A DNA stretch of 64,000 nt from a virus. The translations under genes were made by a program, and so were the position numbers. The stretch spans positions 1 to 64,000 of the IMG/VR virus record IMGVR_UViG_3300037070_003613; one strand, 5' to 3'. Of the stretch, positions 3,693 through 45,231 are shown one piece after another. The notes below the pieces were generated by a model. It saw only the letters and a list, made by a program, of their open reading frames with translations. It made no database searches and had not been told where the DNA came from. How positions within the stretch are numbered: the first letter of the stretch is position 1; the number at the start of each line of letters is the position of its first letter.

Positions 3693-3868
3693 CCTCGCAT
3701 CTCGTCATCCGCGCGGTCGAGATGCGAAGCGGCGACGCCCAGCTATGGCTCGACACCGACCATCAGCGCATCGTGGACGTGTTCTTCGACCGCAGCCAAC
3801 ACCACAAACCGGACCCTGGCTTCGGGCATCTGTTCGTGGTGATCGAGATCCTCGCGAAACCTACTTGA
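3689..3868 (+). CDS. Hypothetical protein
   Basis: 59 aa from GTG in a GTGA overlap with the MerR-like gene. Mixed alpha/beta character, no recognised motif. It ends right where the RNA array promoter region begins. Confidence 0.6.
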   Translation: MTSHLVIRAVEMRSGDAQLWLDTDHQRIVDVFFDRSQHHKPDPGFGHLFVVIEILAKPT

Positions 3869-4737: not shown

Positions 4738-6351
4738 ATGAGCAAGTTCGCTCAAACCGCCACGACCGCCCGCCCGCAGGGGCCGCTGCACACCCTCCCC
4801 GGTGTTCAGACGCGCACCCACGAGGGCGGTCTCGGCTTCGTCAAGGACGCCCGCACCGAACTGTTCTCGCTCGGCGTCGCGAACTTCGTCGCCGAAGACA
4901 CGTACTACGAGAAGGCCGGTGTCCGCGACAAGCGGTTCACGGATCTCGTGCGCGAGGTCACGGCACTCGACCCGGACTGGGTCGCGCACTTCATTCCGTG
5001 GCTCCGCCAGGAAGCGAACATGCGCACCGCTTCGGTGGTCGCCGCCATCGAGTACGCCCGCGCCGCTCCCGGCACGAACGGCCGCGCAGTGATCGCGCAG
5101 ACGCTCACGCGCGCCGACGAACCAGCCGAGGCGCTCGCCTACTGGATGTCGCTCTACGGCCGCAAGATCCCCAAGGCCGTCAAGCGCGGCATCGCCGACG
5201 CCGTCGTCAAGCTGTACACGCAGAACGCCGCCATGAAGTACGACTCGCGCGACGCCAAGATGCGGATGGGTGACGTGATCGACCTCGTCCACCCCAACCC
5301 GCACGACGCGCTCCGCTACTGGGAGCAGGACGACATGGGCATGTCGGACAGCGACGTGGAACTCCTCAAGGACCGCGTCGTGGAGCGCAAGCGCGCCCTG
5401 TTCCAGTACCTCCTCGACAAGCGCCACGGCCGCGACAACCCGCGCGGCCTCGACCGGCTCGGCAAGATCTCGGCCCGCAAGGACGCGATCAAGGCCGCGG
5501 CCGAGGGCGGCGAGTTGGACGTGACGACGGGCATGACGTGGGAGACCGCGTTGTCGCTCGGCGGCTCGAACGCGGAGACGTGGCAGAAGGTCATCCCGCA
5601 GATGGGCTACATGGCTCTGCTGCGCAACCTGCGCAACTTCGAGGACGCCAAGCTGCCCGCCAACGTCCTCATGCAGGTCGCGTCGACGCTGGCCGACCCC
5701 GAGCAGGTCGCCAAGTCGCGCCAGTTCCCGTTCCGGTTCCTGTCGGCGTGGTCGGCGTCCGGCTCGATGATGTGGGGTCAGGCGCTCGAACTCGCGCTCG
5801 AAGCGTCGTGCGCCAACATCCCCGAGTTCCCGGGCAAGACGCTGATCATGGTCGACGTGTCGGGTTCGATGGACGGCAAGATGTCGGCCAAGTCGACGGT
5901 GTCGCGCAAGGTCGCCGGTGCCGTATTCGGCGCGGCCGTGATGAAGCGGTCGGCTCCCGGCTCGAAGCTCGGCGTGTACGCCACGCTGTGCGCCGTGCAG
6001 GACAAGCCACGCTCGGTCCTGCGCACCGCCGAGGAGATCGGCAAGCTGTCGGGCGTCGGCGGTCACGGCACGAACACGTGGCCATCGACGTGGATGCTGT
6101 GGCAGGAGTACGGCCCATTCGACCGGATCCTCATCTTCACCGACGAGCAGCACCACCCATCGCACATCACGGCCGGTTCGTTCCCCAAGGACGTCCCGAT
6201 CTACGTGTGGTGCCTGGGCGGCTACCGTCCGGCGTCGCTCGACCTCGGCACGGGCCGCTACCTGCTCGCCGGTCTCAACGACCAGTGCTTCAAGCTGATC
6301 AAGATCCTCGAAGCCGGGTCCGAGGGACGCTGGCCGTGGGAGGTCGACTGA
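4738..6351 (+). CDS. TROVE-domain protein (Ro60/RSR-like)
   Basis: 537 aa, close to the usual length of bacterial Ro60 orthologues. The N-terminal two thirds follow the TROVE layout of paired helices; examples are TYYEKAGVRDKRF, LVREVTALDPDW and IPWLRQEANMRTASVV. The C-terminal third is a vWA-like domain with MIDAS motif DVSGS (Asp373, Ser375, Ser377). Known family role: a ring-shaped RNA-binding protein that holds misfolded RNA and is gated by Y RNAs, acting in RNA quality control and decay. The six structured RNAs just upstream are the natural partners. ATG at 4738 follows GAAAGGGGC. No RtcB ligase gene is next to it. Identification is firm from motifs; its role in the phage is inference. 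Confidence 0.9.
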   Translation: MSKFAQTATTARPQGPLHTLPGVQTRTHEGGLGFVKDARTELFSLGVANFVAEDTYYEKAGVRDKRFTDLVREVTALDPDWVAHFIPWLRQEANMRTASVVAAIEYARAAPGTNGRAVIAQTLTRADEPAEALAYWMSLYGRKIPKAVKRGIADAVVKLYTQNAAMKYDSRDAKMRMGDVIDLVHPNPHDALRYWEQDDMGMSDSDVELLKDRVVERKRALFQYLLDKRHGRDNPRGLDRLGKISARKDAIKAAAEGGELDVTTGMTWETALSLGGSNAETWQKVIPQMGYMALLRNLRNFEDAKLPANVLMQVASTLADPEQVAKSRQFPFRFLSAWSASGSMMWGQALELALEASCANIPEFPGKTLIMVDVSGSMDGKMSAKSTVSRKVAGAVFGAAVMKRSAPGSKLGVYATLCAVQDKPRSVLRTAEEIGKLSGVGGHGTNTWPSTWMLWQEYGPFDRILIFTDEQHHPSHITAGSFPKDVPIYVWCLGGYRPASLDLGTGRYLLAGLNDQCFKLIKILEAGSEGRWPWEVD

Positions 6352-22086: not shown

Positions 22087-25000
22087 GTGGCCACCGCCAC
22101 GTTCGCCAATCCGTGGCATGACGAAATAGGTCGCTTCGCGCCCAAGGGAACCGGCACGAAGTTCGGCGCGACGCAGGACGAGATGCGGTCTCTGTTCGAG
22201 CCGGTGCGTCCGCTCGTGGACGTCCTCGAAGGCGCCGGTGCGAAGACCTACCTCGTGGGCGGCTCGGTCCGTGACCGGCTGCTCGGCATCGACGCCAAGG
22301 ACATTGACATCGAAGTCCACGGGCTGACCCCCGACGAGACCATCGCACTGTTGAAGGAACGGGGCGCCCGCGTCGATGAGGTCGGCAAGGCGTTCGGCGT
22401 GTTGAAGGTGACATTCGACGGCGAGACCCACGACTTCTCGTTCCCCCGCACCGAGGTCAAGACCGGCGAAGGCCACACCGGCTTCGATGTCACCGTCGAC
22501 CCGAACCTCGGCATCGAGCAGGCGCTCGCCCGCCGCGACTTCACCATGAACGCGCTCGCCGTCGACTCCGACGGCAACATGGTCGACCCGTTCGGCGGGG
22601 TCGCTGACCTCAAGGCCGGTGTGCTGCGCCACGTCGGCCCGGCGTTCTCAGAGGATCCGCTCCGCATCCTGCGCGGCGTCCAGTTCGCCGCCCGCCTCGG
22701 CCTCAAGTTCGACCCGGAGACCGCCAAGCTCGCCCACGACCTGCTGCCCGAGTTGGAGAACATCTCGACGGAACGCGTGTGGGGCGAGTTCGAGAAGCTC
22801 GGCGGTAAGGGCGTCTCGATGGAGGCCGGTGTCCAGGCACTCAAGGACGTCGGTCTCGACACCCGCTACGGCAACGTCCACTTCGACGGCGAACCGAACC
22901 TGACCGGTCTCACCGGCGACCATCGCGCCGCCGTCGCGCTCACCGCGATCGGCGTCGACCCCCGCCAGATCGGAGCGCCGAACACCGTCTCCCGCACCAT
23001 GCGCGACGTCAGCCAGGCGCTCGCGTTCACCGGCGACCAGGCCGCATCCCGGACCGCGGCCCGCGAGTTGAAGTACGGCACGTTCGAGGACGCCGCCCGG
23101 ATCGCAGGCCCAAACGACAACGTCGACCCACGTGTCCTCACCGGCCCACTCCCCGGACTCGTGACCGGCAACGACGTGATGGCCCGCGGTGTGCGCGGCT
23201 CAGCGATCGGCGAGGTCCTGCGCGCCGTGCAACAGGCCCAGGACAACGAGACCATCGTGACCCGCGAGGACGCGCTCGCCTGGCTCGACAAGCACGCCAC
23301 CGCCGCTATCCGCCGCTCCGCCGCGTTCGTGAATCCGTGGCACGACGAGGTCGGACGGTTCGCCCCGAAGGGAACGGGACGCCGGTTCGAGCCGCGCGGC
23401 GGCGCCGACGCCCAAGCACAGGCGCTCGCAGAAGCGATGGCGACACGAGCCGAGTTGAACGGCGGGTTCACATTCGACCCGCGCGGCAACCTGTTCATCA
23501 AACCCGATCCGTCGCTGCCCCGCGAGGAACATCGCGGCGCTGTCGCCGTGCCCGGCCATTCGGCGATCATCACGATGGAAGCCTTCCAGGACCCGACACG
23601 TGGCAAACAGTTCATCCGCGACTACCTCGACCAGCACGCCGAAACCATCGCCTCGCAACCGGACATCTTCATCGGCGGCTGGCACGACCGAGCGCACGGC
23701 GAGGTCGTGCTCGACCTGTCGCAGGTGCGCCCCCTCGATGAGGCGATCAAACTCGGGATCGAACGCGGCGAACAAGCGATCTTCGATCTCGACAGCGAGG
23801 AAGACGTCCCAACTCACGGGACAGGCGGACGCGAGAACGTCAAGATAGTTGACGCATCGGGTCAGGGTTTGGTACGATTCAGTCATGGCAGATACCGCGG
23901 ACCACCGCCAGCAGGCGCCGGACGTAACGGTACGTCCGGGCGACCTGGAAGGCTGGGCGGACAAGTCCGAGGAGGAGAAGCAGGCGATCGTGGACGCCAT
24001 GTACGAGGGTCTGAGTTCGCCAACCCCTGGCACGACGAGATAGGCCAGTTCGCGCCGAAAGGAACCGGCTCGACCGGGAAGGGCCGCTCCTCGAAGGCGG
24101 AGGAGGCCGCAGCGGCGAAGCTCGCCCGGGCGAAGGCCCGCAAGGTCCCGAAGCCGACCGAGGACGACGTGATCCAAGGCCAGGTCGACGCCCTCCTCGC
24201 GCGTGAGGGTTTGGTGCGCGCCGGTGGCGATCGGCGTGGCAACAACACGGCCCGGAAGAAGCGCGCCAAGGCGCTCGCCGCCGAGTTCGGCGACGGCACG
24301 ACCTGCGCCTGCCCGGACTGCGGGCAGCGCATCGCGGCCGACGCGGCAACCGCCGAGAAGCTCGGCATCGACGCGCTCACGCAGGACAAGATCCTGGTGG
24401 GCACGTTGGGTGGCTCCTACAAGATGGAGAACCTGATCCCGACCTGCCCGCCATGCAACCAGTCGCGCGGCGACCGGGAGGGCATCGGTGTCGTCGGCGA
24501 CGTGCGCCAGACGTGGGGATCAGCGGAACGGTTCACGCGGACGGTGGTGCGTCAGCACGGCGACGCCATCGCTCAACGCTTCCAGGAGCGCCGGTCGGCG
24601 ATCATGAAGCGCAAGGGGATCACGTGGGAGGAGCACATCGCCGAGAACCCGGACGCGCTCCCGCAGGACTTCGATCGGCTACGCCGCCCGGTCGGCGGGA
24701 ACTTCGCCGTCGACGGCTGGACCCCCGGGGAGATCGTCACCGACTGGCTCGATCGTGTCGCCGTCAACGGCCACGCCGTCGACCATGAACTTCGTGTAGA
24801 CGATCCCGTTCGAGTCGACTTCCCAGGTGAGCAACTCACCCTCGACCCCTGGGTCACCGACGATCGGGTTGTCGAGGTCATCGGGGGTGTCCCACCCGAA
24901 CCGCTTGGCTCGCACGATCGTGCCGTCCTCAACCACAGACCGCAGCGTAGCGAGTTCGGCAACCCGTGGCATGACGAGATCGGTCAGTTCGCGCCGAAGG

Positions 25001-27336
25001 GCACGGGCACCAACTTCGCCAACATCGCCCGTCGCGCGGACGAAGCGGAAGCGGCCGGATCGCAGATCTCAGAACTCGACCTTGAGCAGGCCGCACTGCT
25101 CGATGACCGGCTGCGCGAGTTCGGGAAGGCGATGGGCAGCGACTTCCAGAACGACGACGGCGTCAGGCTGACCCATCACGCACTCGACCAGCGGCATGGG
25201 CGTGGGACGATGAACGGACTCGCCGCCACCAACCCGGATGGCGTGGTGCTGGGCGCGATCGCCTACAACAAGAACCCCGGCGACTACCACATCGAGTTCC
25301 TCGGCTCGACCGGTCTCGTCAAGGGCGTCGGTTCGCAGTTGGTGATCCCCGTGATGGAACGGGCCGCAGCCGATGGGGCAAAGGTGACACTCAAGGTCGC
25401 CGGGACAAAGAGCGCCGCCTCGTTCTGGGAGTCGCTCGGCTTCGAGCGGGACTGGGAGAGCGCCACCGGCGCCACCATGCAGCCCGCCGACGTGCAGGCA
25501 TGGGTGGCGAATCTCAACCGCGAACGCGAGGGTGTCTTGGTCGGCGCAGGCGCAGCACCAGAAGGATGGGATCCCGACGACGACCGCTGGGCTGCCCACG
25601 CGATCGAACTCGGGCTGATGTCCATTGTCGCCTCCGCGGCGCAGTTCATGAACCCGTGGCACGACGAGGTGGGTCGGTTCGCGCCGAAGGGGACCGGGCG
25701 CAAGTTCGGTAAGCACGTCTCGTGGCATGTCGGCTCAAACGGCTACGAGGTGATGCACAACGGGAAATGGGTCCGGACGCCGGAAGCCATCAAGCACTAC
25801 GGCGCGCTCGAAGTAGCGCAGCACATGTCGCCGCTCGAAGCCCGTCAACTCCGTGAGGAGTTGGAAGGCCAGACGATGATCGACCTTCTCAATGACACGG
25901 ACGTTCAGTACAAGGCAACGGCATCGCTGGCGGTCCTGACTCACGACCCGAACTTGCACGGCAAGGAAGGTTTCGAGCATCTTCAACGTCAAGTCACCTT
26001 CGCCAAAGAGGCCGACCTCGGGCTGGTGATGCAGTTGTACGCCGCAGAGCAGTTCGCCTCATGGGAACACTCCGGGGTCGACATCGCCCTGTTGAAGGAA
26101 GCCACGCAGGCGCACATGCGCGGTGAGATTGACGCCGCCTCACTGTCACGGATGATCACCGAGCAGTACGGGATCACGGTCGAATCGGGCGCCGTTGGCT
26201 GGTTCAACCGGGCCTGGCAGATCTCCGCCGTCTCCCACGAATCAACTGCGATGCAGATCCAGATCGCCGAGCAACGCGGTCTAAGCGCAGCCGATGCGGC
26301 GATGCGCGACTACGTCGGCGACTCGACGCTGGACAAAGCCAACGATCTGACGTGGTCGATGGGAGCGACGATCAACGCCGTGACGTCGGCTCACATCCGC
26401 AACACTGAGGAGAAGCTGACCCAGGCCCCGGAACTGGCGTTGCCGACGATCCACCGAGGCTTGAAGGGTGAACAGTTCACCAGCATCCAGGCCGGTGACA
26501 CGGTCCAGTCGAACCCCTTGTCGTCGTGGTCGTTCGACCCGAACCAGGCCGAGCACTTCGCCACCAACTTCATCGACACACAAGGGATCGTGATCACCAC
26601 CGAGTTCAACCCGGCCAACGTGCTCACCATCAGCGACATCAGCGGCATGGGATCACTGGACGAGCGAGAAGTGATCATGATCGGCGAACCGGTCAAGGTC
26701 ACCCGCGCTCGTCTTCCAACGAAGCCCAGCGGTTGGGCAGTGATCCCGGAGAACGTGTACCTGATTGACACCCCGGAGAACGTCGACTGGATCACCCGCG
26801 AACCCGACGAAGCTCTGACGGCATCGGCGGCCAAGTTCGCGAATCCGTGGCATGACGAGATCGGACGTTTCGCGCCGAAGGGTCAGGGCAGCACGTCCGG
26901 CGGGCTGGACAACGAGGAGGCTGACGCCGAGTTCGAGGAGAAGTACGGCAACGAACGCCGATCCGGCGACGGCGACTGCTTCGAGGTCGGTTTGCACTTC
27001 ATCCACTCCATCCCTCGCGGCGAGGAGGACCGCTACAAGCTGTGTCACGGCGTGCCCGAGGGCCAAGGCCCGATCGAAGGCGTCCGCTTCGATCACTGCT
27101 GGATCGAACGAACCGACCCGCTCCCCGAGACCATGACCCCCGAGCAGCGGGCGATGTTCGAGCAGTACGAGATGAACATCACCGTGATCGACAAGTCGAA
27201 CGGCAACGATGTCGAGATGCCCCGACTGCTGTACTACCAGTTGGGCAGCATCAATCCTCGCGACGTCCGCCGCTACACACCAGACGAAGCCCGCCGCGAG
27301 GCCGTCCGAACCGGGGTTTACGGGCCGTGGACATAG
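22087..27336 (+). CDS. Giant multi-module head-associated protein 1
   Basis: 1749 aa from GTG, six bases after the portal stop. Six copies of NPWHDEIGRFAPKGTG (residues 8, 416, 646, 959, 1189, 1586) each head a module. 1: class II CCA-adding enzyme (GGSVRD 58-63, DIDIE 72-76, RRDFTMNAL 149, EDPLRILR 189). 2: unknown phage domain ending FDLDSEEDVPTHGTGG. 3: HNH nuclease with CPDC and CPPC (740-790). 4: GNAT-like (LGSTGLVKGVGSQL, FWESLGFE). 5: helical region plus ADP-ribosyltransferase (HRG about 1456, SSWS 1479, ERE about 1526). 6: small Cys/His domain (GDCFEVGLHF, FDHCWIE, VIDKSNG), possibly a cysteine hydrolase. About 23880-24020 and 24700-24960 read poorly in this frame (see findings). Resembles polyvalent and MuF-toxin proteins of other phages. 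Confidence 0.75.
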   Translation: MATATFANPWHDEIGRFAPKGTGTKFGATQDEMRSLFEPVRPLVDVLEGAGAKTYLVGGSVRDRLLGIDAKDIDIEVHGLTPDETIALLKERGARVDEVGKAFGVLKVTFDGETHDFSFPRTEVKTGEGHTGFDVTVDPNLGIEQALARRDFTMNALAVDSDGNMVDPFGGVADLKAGVLRHVGPAFSEDPLRILRGVQFAARLGLKFDPETAKLAHDLLPELENISTERVWGEFEKLGGKGVSMEAGVQALKDVGLDTRYGNVHFDGEPNLTGLTGDHRAAVALTAIGVDPRQIGAPNTVSRTMRDVSQALAFTGDQAASRTAARELKYGTFEDAARIAGPNDNVDPRVLTGPLPGLVTGNDVMARGVRGSAIGEVLRAVQQAQDNETIVTREDALAWLDKHATAAIRRSAAFVNPWHDEVGRFAPKGTGRRFEPRGGADAQAQALAEAMATRAELNGGFTFDPRGNLFIKPDPSLPREEHRGAVAVPGHSAIITMEAFQDPTRGKQFIRDYLDQHAETIASQPDIFIGGWHDRAHGEVVLDLSQVRPLDEAIKLGIERGEQAIFDLDSEEDVPTHGTGGRENVKIVDASGQGLVRFSHGRYRGPPPAGAGRNGTSGRPGRLGGQVRGGEAGDRGRHVRGSEFANPWHDEIGQFAPKGTGSTGKGRSSKAEEAAAAKLARAKARKVPKPTEDDVIQGQVDALLAREGLVRAGGDRRGNNTARKKRAKALAAEFGDGTTCACPDCGQRIAADAATAEKLGIDALTQDKILVGTLGGSYKMENLIPTCPPCNQSRGDREGIGVVGDVRQTWGSAERFTRTVVRQHGDAIAQRFQERRSAIMKRKGITWEEHIAENPDALPQDFDRLRRPVGGNFAVDGWTPGEIVTDWLDRVAVNGHAVDHELRVDDPVRVDFPGEQLTLDPWVTDDRVVEVIGGVPPEPLGSHDRAVLNHRPQRSEFGNPWHDEIGQFAPKGTGTNFANIARRADEAEAAGSQISELDLEQAALLDDRLREFGKAMGSDFQNDDGVRLTHHALDQRHGRGTMNGLAATNPDGVVLGAIAYNKNPGDYHIEFLGSTGLVKGVGSQLVIPVMERAAADGAKVTLKVAGTKSAASFWESLGFERDWESATGATMQPADVQAWVANLNREREGVLVGAGAAPEGWDPDDDRWAAHAIELGLMSIVASAAQFMNPWHDEVGRFAPKGTGRKFGKHVSWHVGSNGYEVMHNGKWVRTPEAIKHYGALEVAQHMSPLEARQLREELEGQTMIDLLNDTDVQYKATASLAVLTHDPNLHGKEGFEHLQRQVTFAKEADLGLVMQLYAAEQFASWEHSGVDIALLKEATQAHMRGEIDAASLSRMITEQYGITVESGAVGWFNRAWQISAVSHESTAMQIQIAEQRGLSAADAAMRDYVGDSTLDKANDLTWSMGATINAVTSAHIRNTEEKLTQAPELALPTIHRGLKGEQFTSIQAGDTVQSNPLSSWSFDPNQAEHFATNFIDTQGIVITTEFNPANVLTISDISGMGSLDEREVIMIGEPVKVTRARLPTKPSGWAVIPENVYLIDTPENVDWITREPDEALTASAAKFANPWHDEIGRFAPKGQGSTSGGLDNEEADAEFEEKYGNERRSGDGDCFEVGLHFIHSIPRGEEDRYKLCHGVPEGQGPIEGVRFDHCWIERTDPLPETMTPEQRAMFEQYEMNITVIDKSNGNDVEMPRLLYYQLGSINPRDVRRYTPDEARREAVRTGVYGPWT
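23849..23878 (+). promoter_or_regulatory. Internal promoter inside giant ORF 1
   Basis: TTGACG (23849-23854), 18-bp spacer, TACGAT (23873-23878), with an ATG six bases further on: the same leaderless design as elsewhere in the window. Confidence 0.6.
23885..24043 (+). CDS. Small gene nested out of frame in giant ORF 1
   Basis: 52 aa (MADTADHRQQAPDVTVRPGD at the start, EEEKQAIVDAMYEGL later). Codon third positions favour this frame over the giant ORF's frame, which here reads as Gly/Arg-rich text. It sits exactly behind a leaderless-type promoter. It ends inside the next NPWHDE repeat. Either it is a separate overlapping gene or, after a frame change, the N-terminus of the HNH module. Unknown function. 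Confidence 0.5.
   Translation: MADTADHRQQAPDVTVRPGDLEGWADKSEEEKQAIVDAMYEGLSSPTPGTTR
24679..24972 (-). CDS. Candidate antisense ORF in giant ORF 1
   Basis: 97 codons on the minus strand, opposite the poorly coding end of the HNH module. The text is protein-like (DGTIVRAKRFGWDTPDDLDN, then LLTWEVDSNGIVYTKFMVDG) and its third positions are more G/C-rich than the plus frame. The start may be a GTG near residue 13. It could be a real gene that was overrun by the long ORF. Low certainty. Confidence 0.35.
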   Translation of the reverse strand: MPRVAELATLRSVVEDGTIVRAKRFGWDTPDDLDNPIVGDPGVEGELLTWEVDSNGIVYTKFMVDGVAVDGDTIEPVGDDLPGGPAVDGEVPADRAA

Positions 27337-44696: not shown

Positions 44697-44726
44697 TTGA
44701 CAAACCCTGGACGTTCTGCGCATAAT
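44697..44726 (+). promoter_or_regulatory. Promoter of the first RNA cluster
   Basis: TTGACA (44697-44702), 18-bp spacer beginning AACCCTGGAC, CATAAT (44721-44726). The transcript would begin near 44733 with a hairpin GGAGAAG/CTTCTCC (44737-44762). Confidence 0.85.
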
Positions 44727-44939: not shown

Positions 44940-45012
44940 GATGCTGTAGCTCAGTGGAAAGAGCACCGGCTTGCGAAGCCGGTTGTCGCAGGTTCGAGTC
45001 CTGCCAGCGTCA
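44940..45012 (+). tRNA. tRNA-Arg(GCG)
   Basis: Acceptor GATGCTG/CAGCGTC. Anticodon loop TTGCGAA on stem CCGGC/GCCGG. T-arm GCAGG-TTCGAGT-CCTGC. CCA not encoded. Confidence 0.85.
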
Positions 45013-45017
45013 CTACT

Positions 45018-45150
45018 CCACCGCAAAGGTTGGCTTAGAAGCAGCCATCCTCTAAGGAGTGACACCCGAGTCCGGACGGTCCGGTGGGAGCCAGGGAACT
45101 GGTGAGGAACCTATAGAGCCTCGTCTTAGGCGTAACAGCACATGCGGTGG
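45018..45150 (+). ncRNA. 23S rRNA GTPase-associated-centre mimic
   Basis: Closing stem CCACCGCA (45018-45025) with TGCGGTGG (45143-45150). The 5' part contains TTGGCTTAGAAGCAGCCATC (45030-45049), identical over 20 nt to helix 43 and flanks of bacterial 23S rRNA (E. coli about 1059-1078, from memory). The 3' part contains GCGTAACAGC (45130-45139), matching the helix 44 tip (E. coli GCGTAATAGC). Between them CTCTAAGGAGTG resembles the actinobacterial helix 44 5' side. About 69 nt with its own hairpins (CCGGA/TCCGG; CCAG-GGAA-CTGG) is inserted. In rRNA this region binds protein L11 and elongation factors. It sits between two tRNAs. Confidence 0.75.
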
Positions 45151-45155
45151 GGCGA

Positions 45156-45228
45156 CCGAATGTGGCGCAGTTGGTAGCGCACCTGGTTTGGGACCAGGGG
45201 GTCGGGAGTTCGAGCCTCTCCATTCGGA
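45156..45228 (+). tRNA. tRNA-Pro(TGG)
   Basis: Acceptor CCGAATG/CATTCGG, anticodon loop TTTGGGA on CCTGG/CCAGG, T-loop TTCGAGC. CCA not encoded. Confidence 0.9.
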
Positions 45229-45231
45229 CGA

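Follow-up and report, generated by a model that had tools for sequence, protein, structure and literature searches.

The window analysed here, 64,000 nt of the virus record IMGVR_UViG_3300037070_003613, raises the question why a phage should encode, between two tRNA genes, an RNA that looks like a protein-binding domain of the ribosome. At 45018-45150 on the plus strand we found a 133-nt stem-closed RNA gene, with a tRNA-Arg gene 4 nt upstream and a tRNA-Pro gene 5 nt downstream, letter for letter as a sequence-only reading of this DNA had described it. The RNA contains parts of the GTPase-associated centre (GAC) of 23S rRNA, namely H43, the 1082-1086 pair and the H44 tip. Taken as a whole, it is best explained as an excised GAC-like RNA that would capture the host protein uL11, a reading to which we assign a probability of about 0.45. 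Excision, stability, tertiary fold, L11 binding and its consequence are what we infer from the comparison of sequences. The sequence and secondary structure, the existence of a family, its restriction to phages and its linkage to tRNA genes are observed, and we regard them as close to certain.

Parts of the element and their counterparts in 23S rRNA

The element is closed by the helix P1, formed by CCACCGCA at 45018-45025 and TGCGGTGG at 45143-45150, which replaces the H42 pairs from 1055-1104 outward. P1 comprises 8 bp, is lengthened to about 10 bp by outer U-G and C-G pairs and lies at the fixed spacing of the family, 6 nt before GGC and 3 nt after AGC. Its sequence differs from that of the closing helix in rRNA. 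The H43 equivalent (E. coli 1057-1081) at 45027-45051, with the loop UUAGAAGCA, is assigned from its letters and from covariation of the 1058-1080 pair. Within it, TTGGCTTAGAAGCAGCCATC at 45030-45049 has the same letters in Paenibacillus and the other 23S genes compared, which confirms the 20-nt identity given in the sequence-only reading; this segment corresponds to E. coli 1060-1079 (about 1059-1078 in that reading). The 1082-1086 equivalent at 45052-45056, where C1082-G1086 encloses U-A-A, is recognized by the variation of this pair in the family. It is followed by GAGU at 45057-45060, the 5' strand of H44 (1087-1090), of which G1087, A1088 and U1090 are invariant in 79 family members.

Between 1090 and 1091, the RNA contains an insert of 65 nt (45061-45125), whose base helix pairs GAC at 45061-45063 with GUC at 45123-45125 and is supported by covariation of this helix (P3) in the family. 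With the linker UUAG at 45126-45129, which corresponds to a family consensus UUUG present in nearly all 79 members, the insertion amounts to the 69 nt estimated before. The H44 tip, GCGUAACAGC plus ACA (1091-1103), follows at 45130-45142; 1091-1094 and 1098-1101 are invariant in the 79 members, and A1101 is specific to the family. The tip letters that had been claimed, GCGTAACAGC, are found at 45130-45139, and AGCACA after the tip occupies 45137-45142. All helices and tertiary-core bases of the 58-nt L11 domain are present, with the core bases assigned from the L11-RNA crystal structures. The plain MFE fold of the RNA is ordinary (z -0.47), and the case for it therefore rests on comparative evidence.

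Could the element simply be a piece of 23S rRNA? About 35 nt closely resemble rRNA, and the Rfam model LSU_rRNA_bacteria (RF02541), a check proposed along with the original observation, gave a partial match, restricted to 45027-45067 (41 nt, 22.6 bits, E 2.1e-5) and below the gathering score of 50. A 23S rRNA would be expected to exceed this score and to have rRNA on both sides; the flanks here are tRNAs, namely tRNA-Arg(GCG) at 44940-45013 and tRNA-Pro(TGG) at 45156-45229, both on the plus strand and both identified by ARAGORN and Rfam. The GAC RNA occurs once in the phage record of 147,492 bp. The same 1,601 nt are found with 100% identity in another contig, which was assembled separately; this argues against an assembly error. 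Moreover, P1, 1058-1080, 1082-1086 and P3 covary over 79 diverged members, which share the family-specific A1101 and the insertion point. Contamination by rRNA is ruled out by the tRNA flanks, the covariation and A1101, and we give practically no credence to a functionless 23S piece derived from recombination or misassembly. The earlier conclusion, drawn from an 8-bp terminal helix unlike that of rRNA, that the element is no stray rRNA fragment is supported.

Size, distribution and conservation of the family

The family of phage GAC-mimic RNAs comprises at least 127 non-redundant members from IMG/VR contigs, cultured phages and a few MAG contigs. Scanning IMG/VR with an H43 16-mer returned at least 120 stretches, and most of the matches listed share a common frame with different closing stems and different inserts. 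When the 3' motif UUUGGCGUAAYAGCACAC alone was used and H43 was left free, again at least 120 stretches were obtained, and most of the matches listed have an H43 element upstream. A version of this motif that is one base longer occurs in 257 Gb of bacterial and archaeal genomes in 7 stretches, six of them MAG contigs and one a bacterial-strain scaffold. The family is phage-specific and widespread. Cultured carriers include Cronobacter phage GAP32, Pectobacterium phage CBB, Serratia phage BF and Erwinia relatives, the Xanthomonas phages XacN1, XaC1 and XbC2, Aeromonas phage 4_4572, Otagovirus, and the Pseudomonas phages pf16, UNO-G1W1, Milchi and Astolliot. The RNA is annotated in no carrier record, and a few records call small hypothetical ORFs across it.

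Some loci are unusual. Two nearby copies of the element were seen in contig L126 (1362 and 1673, minus strand) and in L060 (5138 and 5456, the second partial by the motif test). In the 42-kb viral contig L001, the GAC element at 3700-3780 has the spacing of rRNA and apparently no insert; its closing stem is its own, long and interrupted. Genuine 23S sequence in Paenibacillus phage Pd_22F and in several small phage records was left out of the family; in Pd_22F it is a real 23S segment (L132 2384-2440, MZ092003.1 about 83976-84012), most likely host sequence.

For the analysis of covariation, the 127 members were reduced to 79 by dropping close relatives and unusual spacings. Among pairs that had not been used in selection, 1058-1080 is canonical in 99% of the 79 members (43% after shuffling) and 1082-1086 in 95% (59% after shuffling), the latter with U-A, C-G and A-U variants. 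The first three pairs of P3 are canonical in 100, 97 and 86% of cases, against 63, 53 and 41% in shuffled data. For P1 we used 101 members chosen without regard to the stem; its pairs 0-6 are canonical in 79-97%, compared with about 40% after shuffling at variable positions. Over the whole structure, 16 widely separated members have 94% standard pairs (65.6% shuffled) and a covariation score of 0.747, compared with 0.164 for shuffled and 0.12-0.18 for slid alignments. Conservation of the H43 and H44 bases in relatives and covariation of the closing stem had been named as checks; both are seen, in the samples of 79 and 101 members, respectively.

A covariance model (R1) was built from these 16 members, with the window excluded. 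It finds the element at 45012-45156 over the full length of the model (1-92) with 75.6 bits and an E value of 5.1e-18 as the sole match in the window, and as the one match in the 147-kb record. Real 23S rRNA scores 51.2 bits and L001 28.9 bits, and R1 has no match in the tRNA region of T4.

Near-invariant in the 79 members are G1059, U1060, U1066, G1071, C1072, A1077, C1079, A1084, A1085, G1087 and A1088 and, on the H44 side, 1091-1094 and 1098-1100, with A1095 in 78 of 79; the search patterns had partly fixed the H43 letters in the first scan and, in both scans, those of the tip. In the 42 members where H43 was unconstrained, U1066, G1071 and C1072 are invariant, while A1067 is present in 27, G1068 in 28 and A1070 in 31; the remaining 15 have G, C or U at position 1067. 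These three relaxed positions lie at the end of the H43 loop that is turned towards factors and thiostrepton. In 12 distinct bacterial 23S sequences, by comparison, 1066-1068 and 1070-1072 are all invariant. The contrast at A1067 (Fisher p 0.024) ignores relatedness and uses a small rRNA sample from few phyla, and it is suggestive of a relaxation of A1067 in the family relative to rRNA. The 58-nt H43/H44 region is described as folding autonomously and as the L11 site; A1067 and A1095 are close in the fold, and thiostrepton binds near A1067 (PMC4409310). The pattern of conservation would fit a selection that acts more on the fold and the L11 side than on the antibiotic side. At 1101, all 79 members have A and all 12 rRNAs U (AGCACA versus AGCUCA in rRNA); A1101 is able to pair with the invariant U1090.

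The inserts range from 37 to 365 nt over the family. They differ completely between sub-families and are partly conserved within them. GGUAAGG occurs in roughly one fifth of 112 distinct inserts, within a hairpin of the type CACCCCG[GAAA]CGGUAAGG. A recurrent hairpin, NNCACCCCG[GAAA]CGGUAAGGNN, with pairing flanks and shortly before the UUUG linker, was seen for example in L016, L133, L135, L136 and L139. Three points go beyond what had been read from the window: how large the family is, the constant place of the insert at 1090/1091, where it has a covarying helix of its own, and the A1101 specific to the family.

Linkage to tRNA genes and possible functions

The nearest tRNA gene lies within 500 nt in 74 of 124 distinct members and within 150 nt in 62. 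All 74 of these tRNAs share the strand of the RNA, which suggests a stable RNA that is freed by tRNA processing. A total of 53 of 58 carrier records contain tRNA genes, often 20-60; since five have none, a coupling to tRNA maturation would not be universal. Apart from a homing-endonuclease-like family, we found no conserved neighbouring protein gene in the carriers; homing endonucleases of this kind are usual in tRNA islands. The open-access literature yielded no published transcriptomes of the named carrier phages.

We propose that the enzymes which process the adjacent tRNAs would also cut the phage RNA out of the transcript of the tRNA operon, and that it would then stand free. It would fold like the L11-binding domain (H43/H44) of 23S rRNA, with its own closing helix and the variable domain at 1090/1091 keeping it apart from the ribosome. 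Host uL11, perhaps together with the L10-L12 stalk, may be bound by this RNA and so be withheld from ribosomes or held on the phage RNA. New ribosomes short of L11 would then show a blunted RelA activation, and factor-dependent steps of translation would be altered during infection. The most economical reading is a decoy or holder of uL11, a universal protein whose binding site is this fold; L11 was found to be essential for the activation of RelA in E. coli (PMC7058999). The protein partner would have to be that of the host, since an L11 C-terminal domain is encoded in 0 of 58 carrier records, with the control positive in 14 of 14 genomes. Free L11 is scarce relative to ribosomes, and a decoy would therefore need a high RNA copy number or would have to act on freshly synthesized L11. 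The inserts, which are large and variable and in some members have a common motif, have no role in a simple decoy and count against it. With greater reserve, we suggest that a trans-acting imitation of the ribosomal centre, in phages whose hosts belong to several phyla, might take uL11 and possibly the stalk from host ribosomes and thereby stop ribosome-dependent ppGpp synthesis or reprogram translation.

After the uL11 decoy, three further explanations are possible, in the following order. The RNA could serve as a decoy that diverts a defence enzyme or toxin of the host which recognizes or cleaves the GAC of 23S rRNA. Phage tRNAs that replace or evade cleaved host tRNAs would provide a parallel, the location inside tRNA islands and the restriction to phages agree with it, and the relaxed position 1067 could be escape variation. 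However, the conservation of the fold-defining bases across phages of several host phyla would require a very common enzyme, and we know of no anti-phage enzyme that targets the GAC, which makes this explanation rather improbable. The inserts, being long, structured at their base and partly conserved within sub-families, might instead point to a scaffold or recruiter, where uL11 and the stalk, or some other factor that binds the GAC, would sit on the RNA and be linked by the insert to a further target, for example phage tRNAs, phage ribonucleoproteins or the degradosome. Inserts that are wholly different between sub-families, one of just 37 nt, and the apparently insert-free L001 are hard to reconcile with such a function, and we consider it still less probable. 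We see a smaller chance for a cis-acting leader that responds to free uL11, or to the L11-ribosome status, by regulating how the phage operon downstream is transcribed or processed. The mimicry of rRNA is a known principle of ribosomal-protein autoregulation (PMC10931766), and the RNA is co-directional with the adjoining tRNA genes; yet no gene is conserved downstream of it, the 58 carrier records lack an L11 gene, the nearest tRNA is downstream in 42 members and upstream in 32, and in the window tRNAs lie on both sides at a distance of 4-5 nt.

It is unlikely that the RNA acts as a decoy of thiopeptide antibiotics or of translational GTPases contacting A1067 and A1095. A1095 is kept in 78 of 79 members, but A1067 is replaced in 15 of the 42 unconstrained members, 1068 and 1070 are relaxed as well, and some of the carriers infect Gram-negative hosts, among them Cronobacter, Xanthomonas and Pseudomonas. 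An antibiotic had been among the targets considered in the sequence-only reading, and this part of its interpretation is weakened; the copy of the GAC, the distinction from a stray rRNA fragment, the conservation and, as far as Rfam and the open-access literature show, the novelty stand.

Known systems and other features of the window phage

With the bacterial 23S GAC (H42-H44, the uL11 site), the phage RNA has in common H43, the 1082-1086 pair, the H44 tip, the tertiary-core bases and their relative geometry. In contrast to it, the phage RNA is encoded outside any rRNA gene and has its own closing helix, A1101 instead of U, an insert of 37-365 nt at 1090/1091 and a relaxed A1067. GOLLD and ROOL are likewise structured RNAs of phages and prophages, often near tRNA islands (PMC12286853), and form RNA-only cages of about 660-800 nt or more. 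The phage GAC RNA is much smaller and distinct, and the Rfam models of GOLLD and ROOL have no match in the window or in 16 sampled carrier loci. Leaders of ribosomal-protein genes, for example with the uL1 site, likewise imitate the rRNA site of a ribosomal protein (PMC10931766). These are cis elements of ribosomal-protein operons, upstream of the gene for their own binding protein, whereas the phage RNA lies among tRNAs and no such gene, as judged by the L11 C-terminal domain, was found in the 58 records. The species 1 and 2 RNAs of T4 (rnaC, rnaD) are also small stable RNAs of a phage tRNA cluster. They were rejected as relatives, having no H43/H44 element by eye and no covariance-model match.

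In the window and the 16 sampled carrier loci, Rfam matched tRNAs alone, and we found no description of an rRNA-mimicking phage RNA in the open-access literature; subscription papers and preprints lay outside this search, and an earlier description may exist there. As far as Rfam and the open-access literature show, the family is undescribed, in agreement with the original impression that no phage RNA of this kind was known. If its members act in trans on the ribosome as suggested, we know of no earlier viral RNA that mimics a ribosome domain. The family is large and structurally well defined, with well over 100 phage contigs as well as cultured phages, and imitates a protein-binding domain of 23S rRNA that is among the best studied; beside GOLLD and ROOL it forms a third class of tRNA-island RNA. 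If uL11 is captured, phages would have in this RNA a means of acting directly on the stringent response and on translation factors, and this would help to explain the non-decoding purpose of phage tRNA islands.

Upstream of the two tRNAs, at 44697-44726 (+), lies a putative sigma-70-like promoter of the tRNA/GAC-RNA unit (11/12 consensus match); two promoter-like matches were found in the region, with 0.1 expected. Near-identical copies of this 30-mer occur at five other plus-strand sites (6971, 7901, 9237, 45855 and 59942). The repeated element, TTGACAAACC...CTGCGCATAAT, is probably a phage promoter of several units, including the tRNA/GAC-RNA unit. At 4738-6351 (+), the window encodes a Ro-like (TROVE) protein that binds RNA. 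It shares about 38% identity with versions from Streptomyces and Arthrobacter phages, a kinship which suggests an actinobacterial host. As a general partner of the RNA the Ro protein was rejected, since only 4 of 47 carriers were above the cut-off. A 1,717-aa ORF at 22183-27336 (+) starts as a tRNA nucleotidyltransferase and includes an HNH endonuclease-like stretch at about residues 636-824; it is possibly an intein or a fusion.
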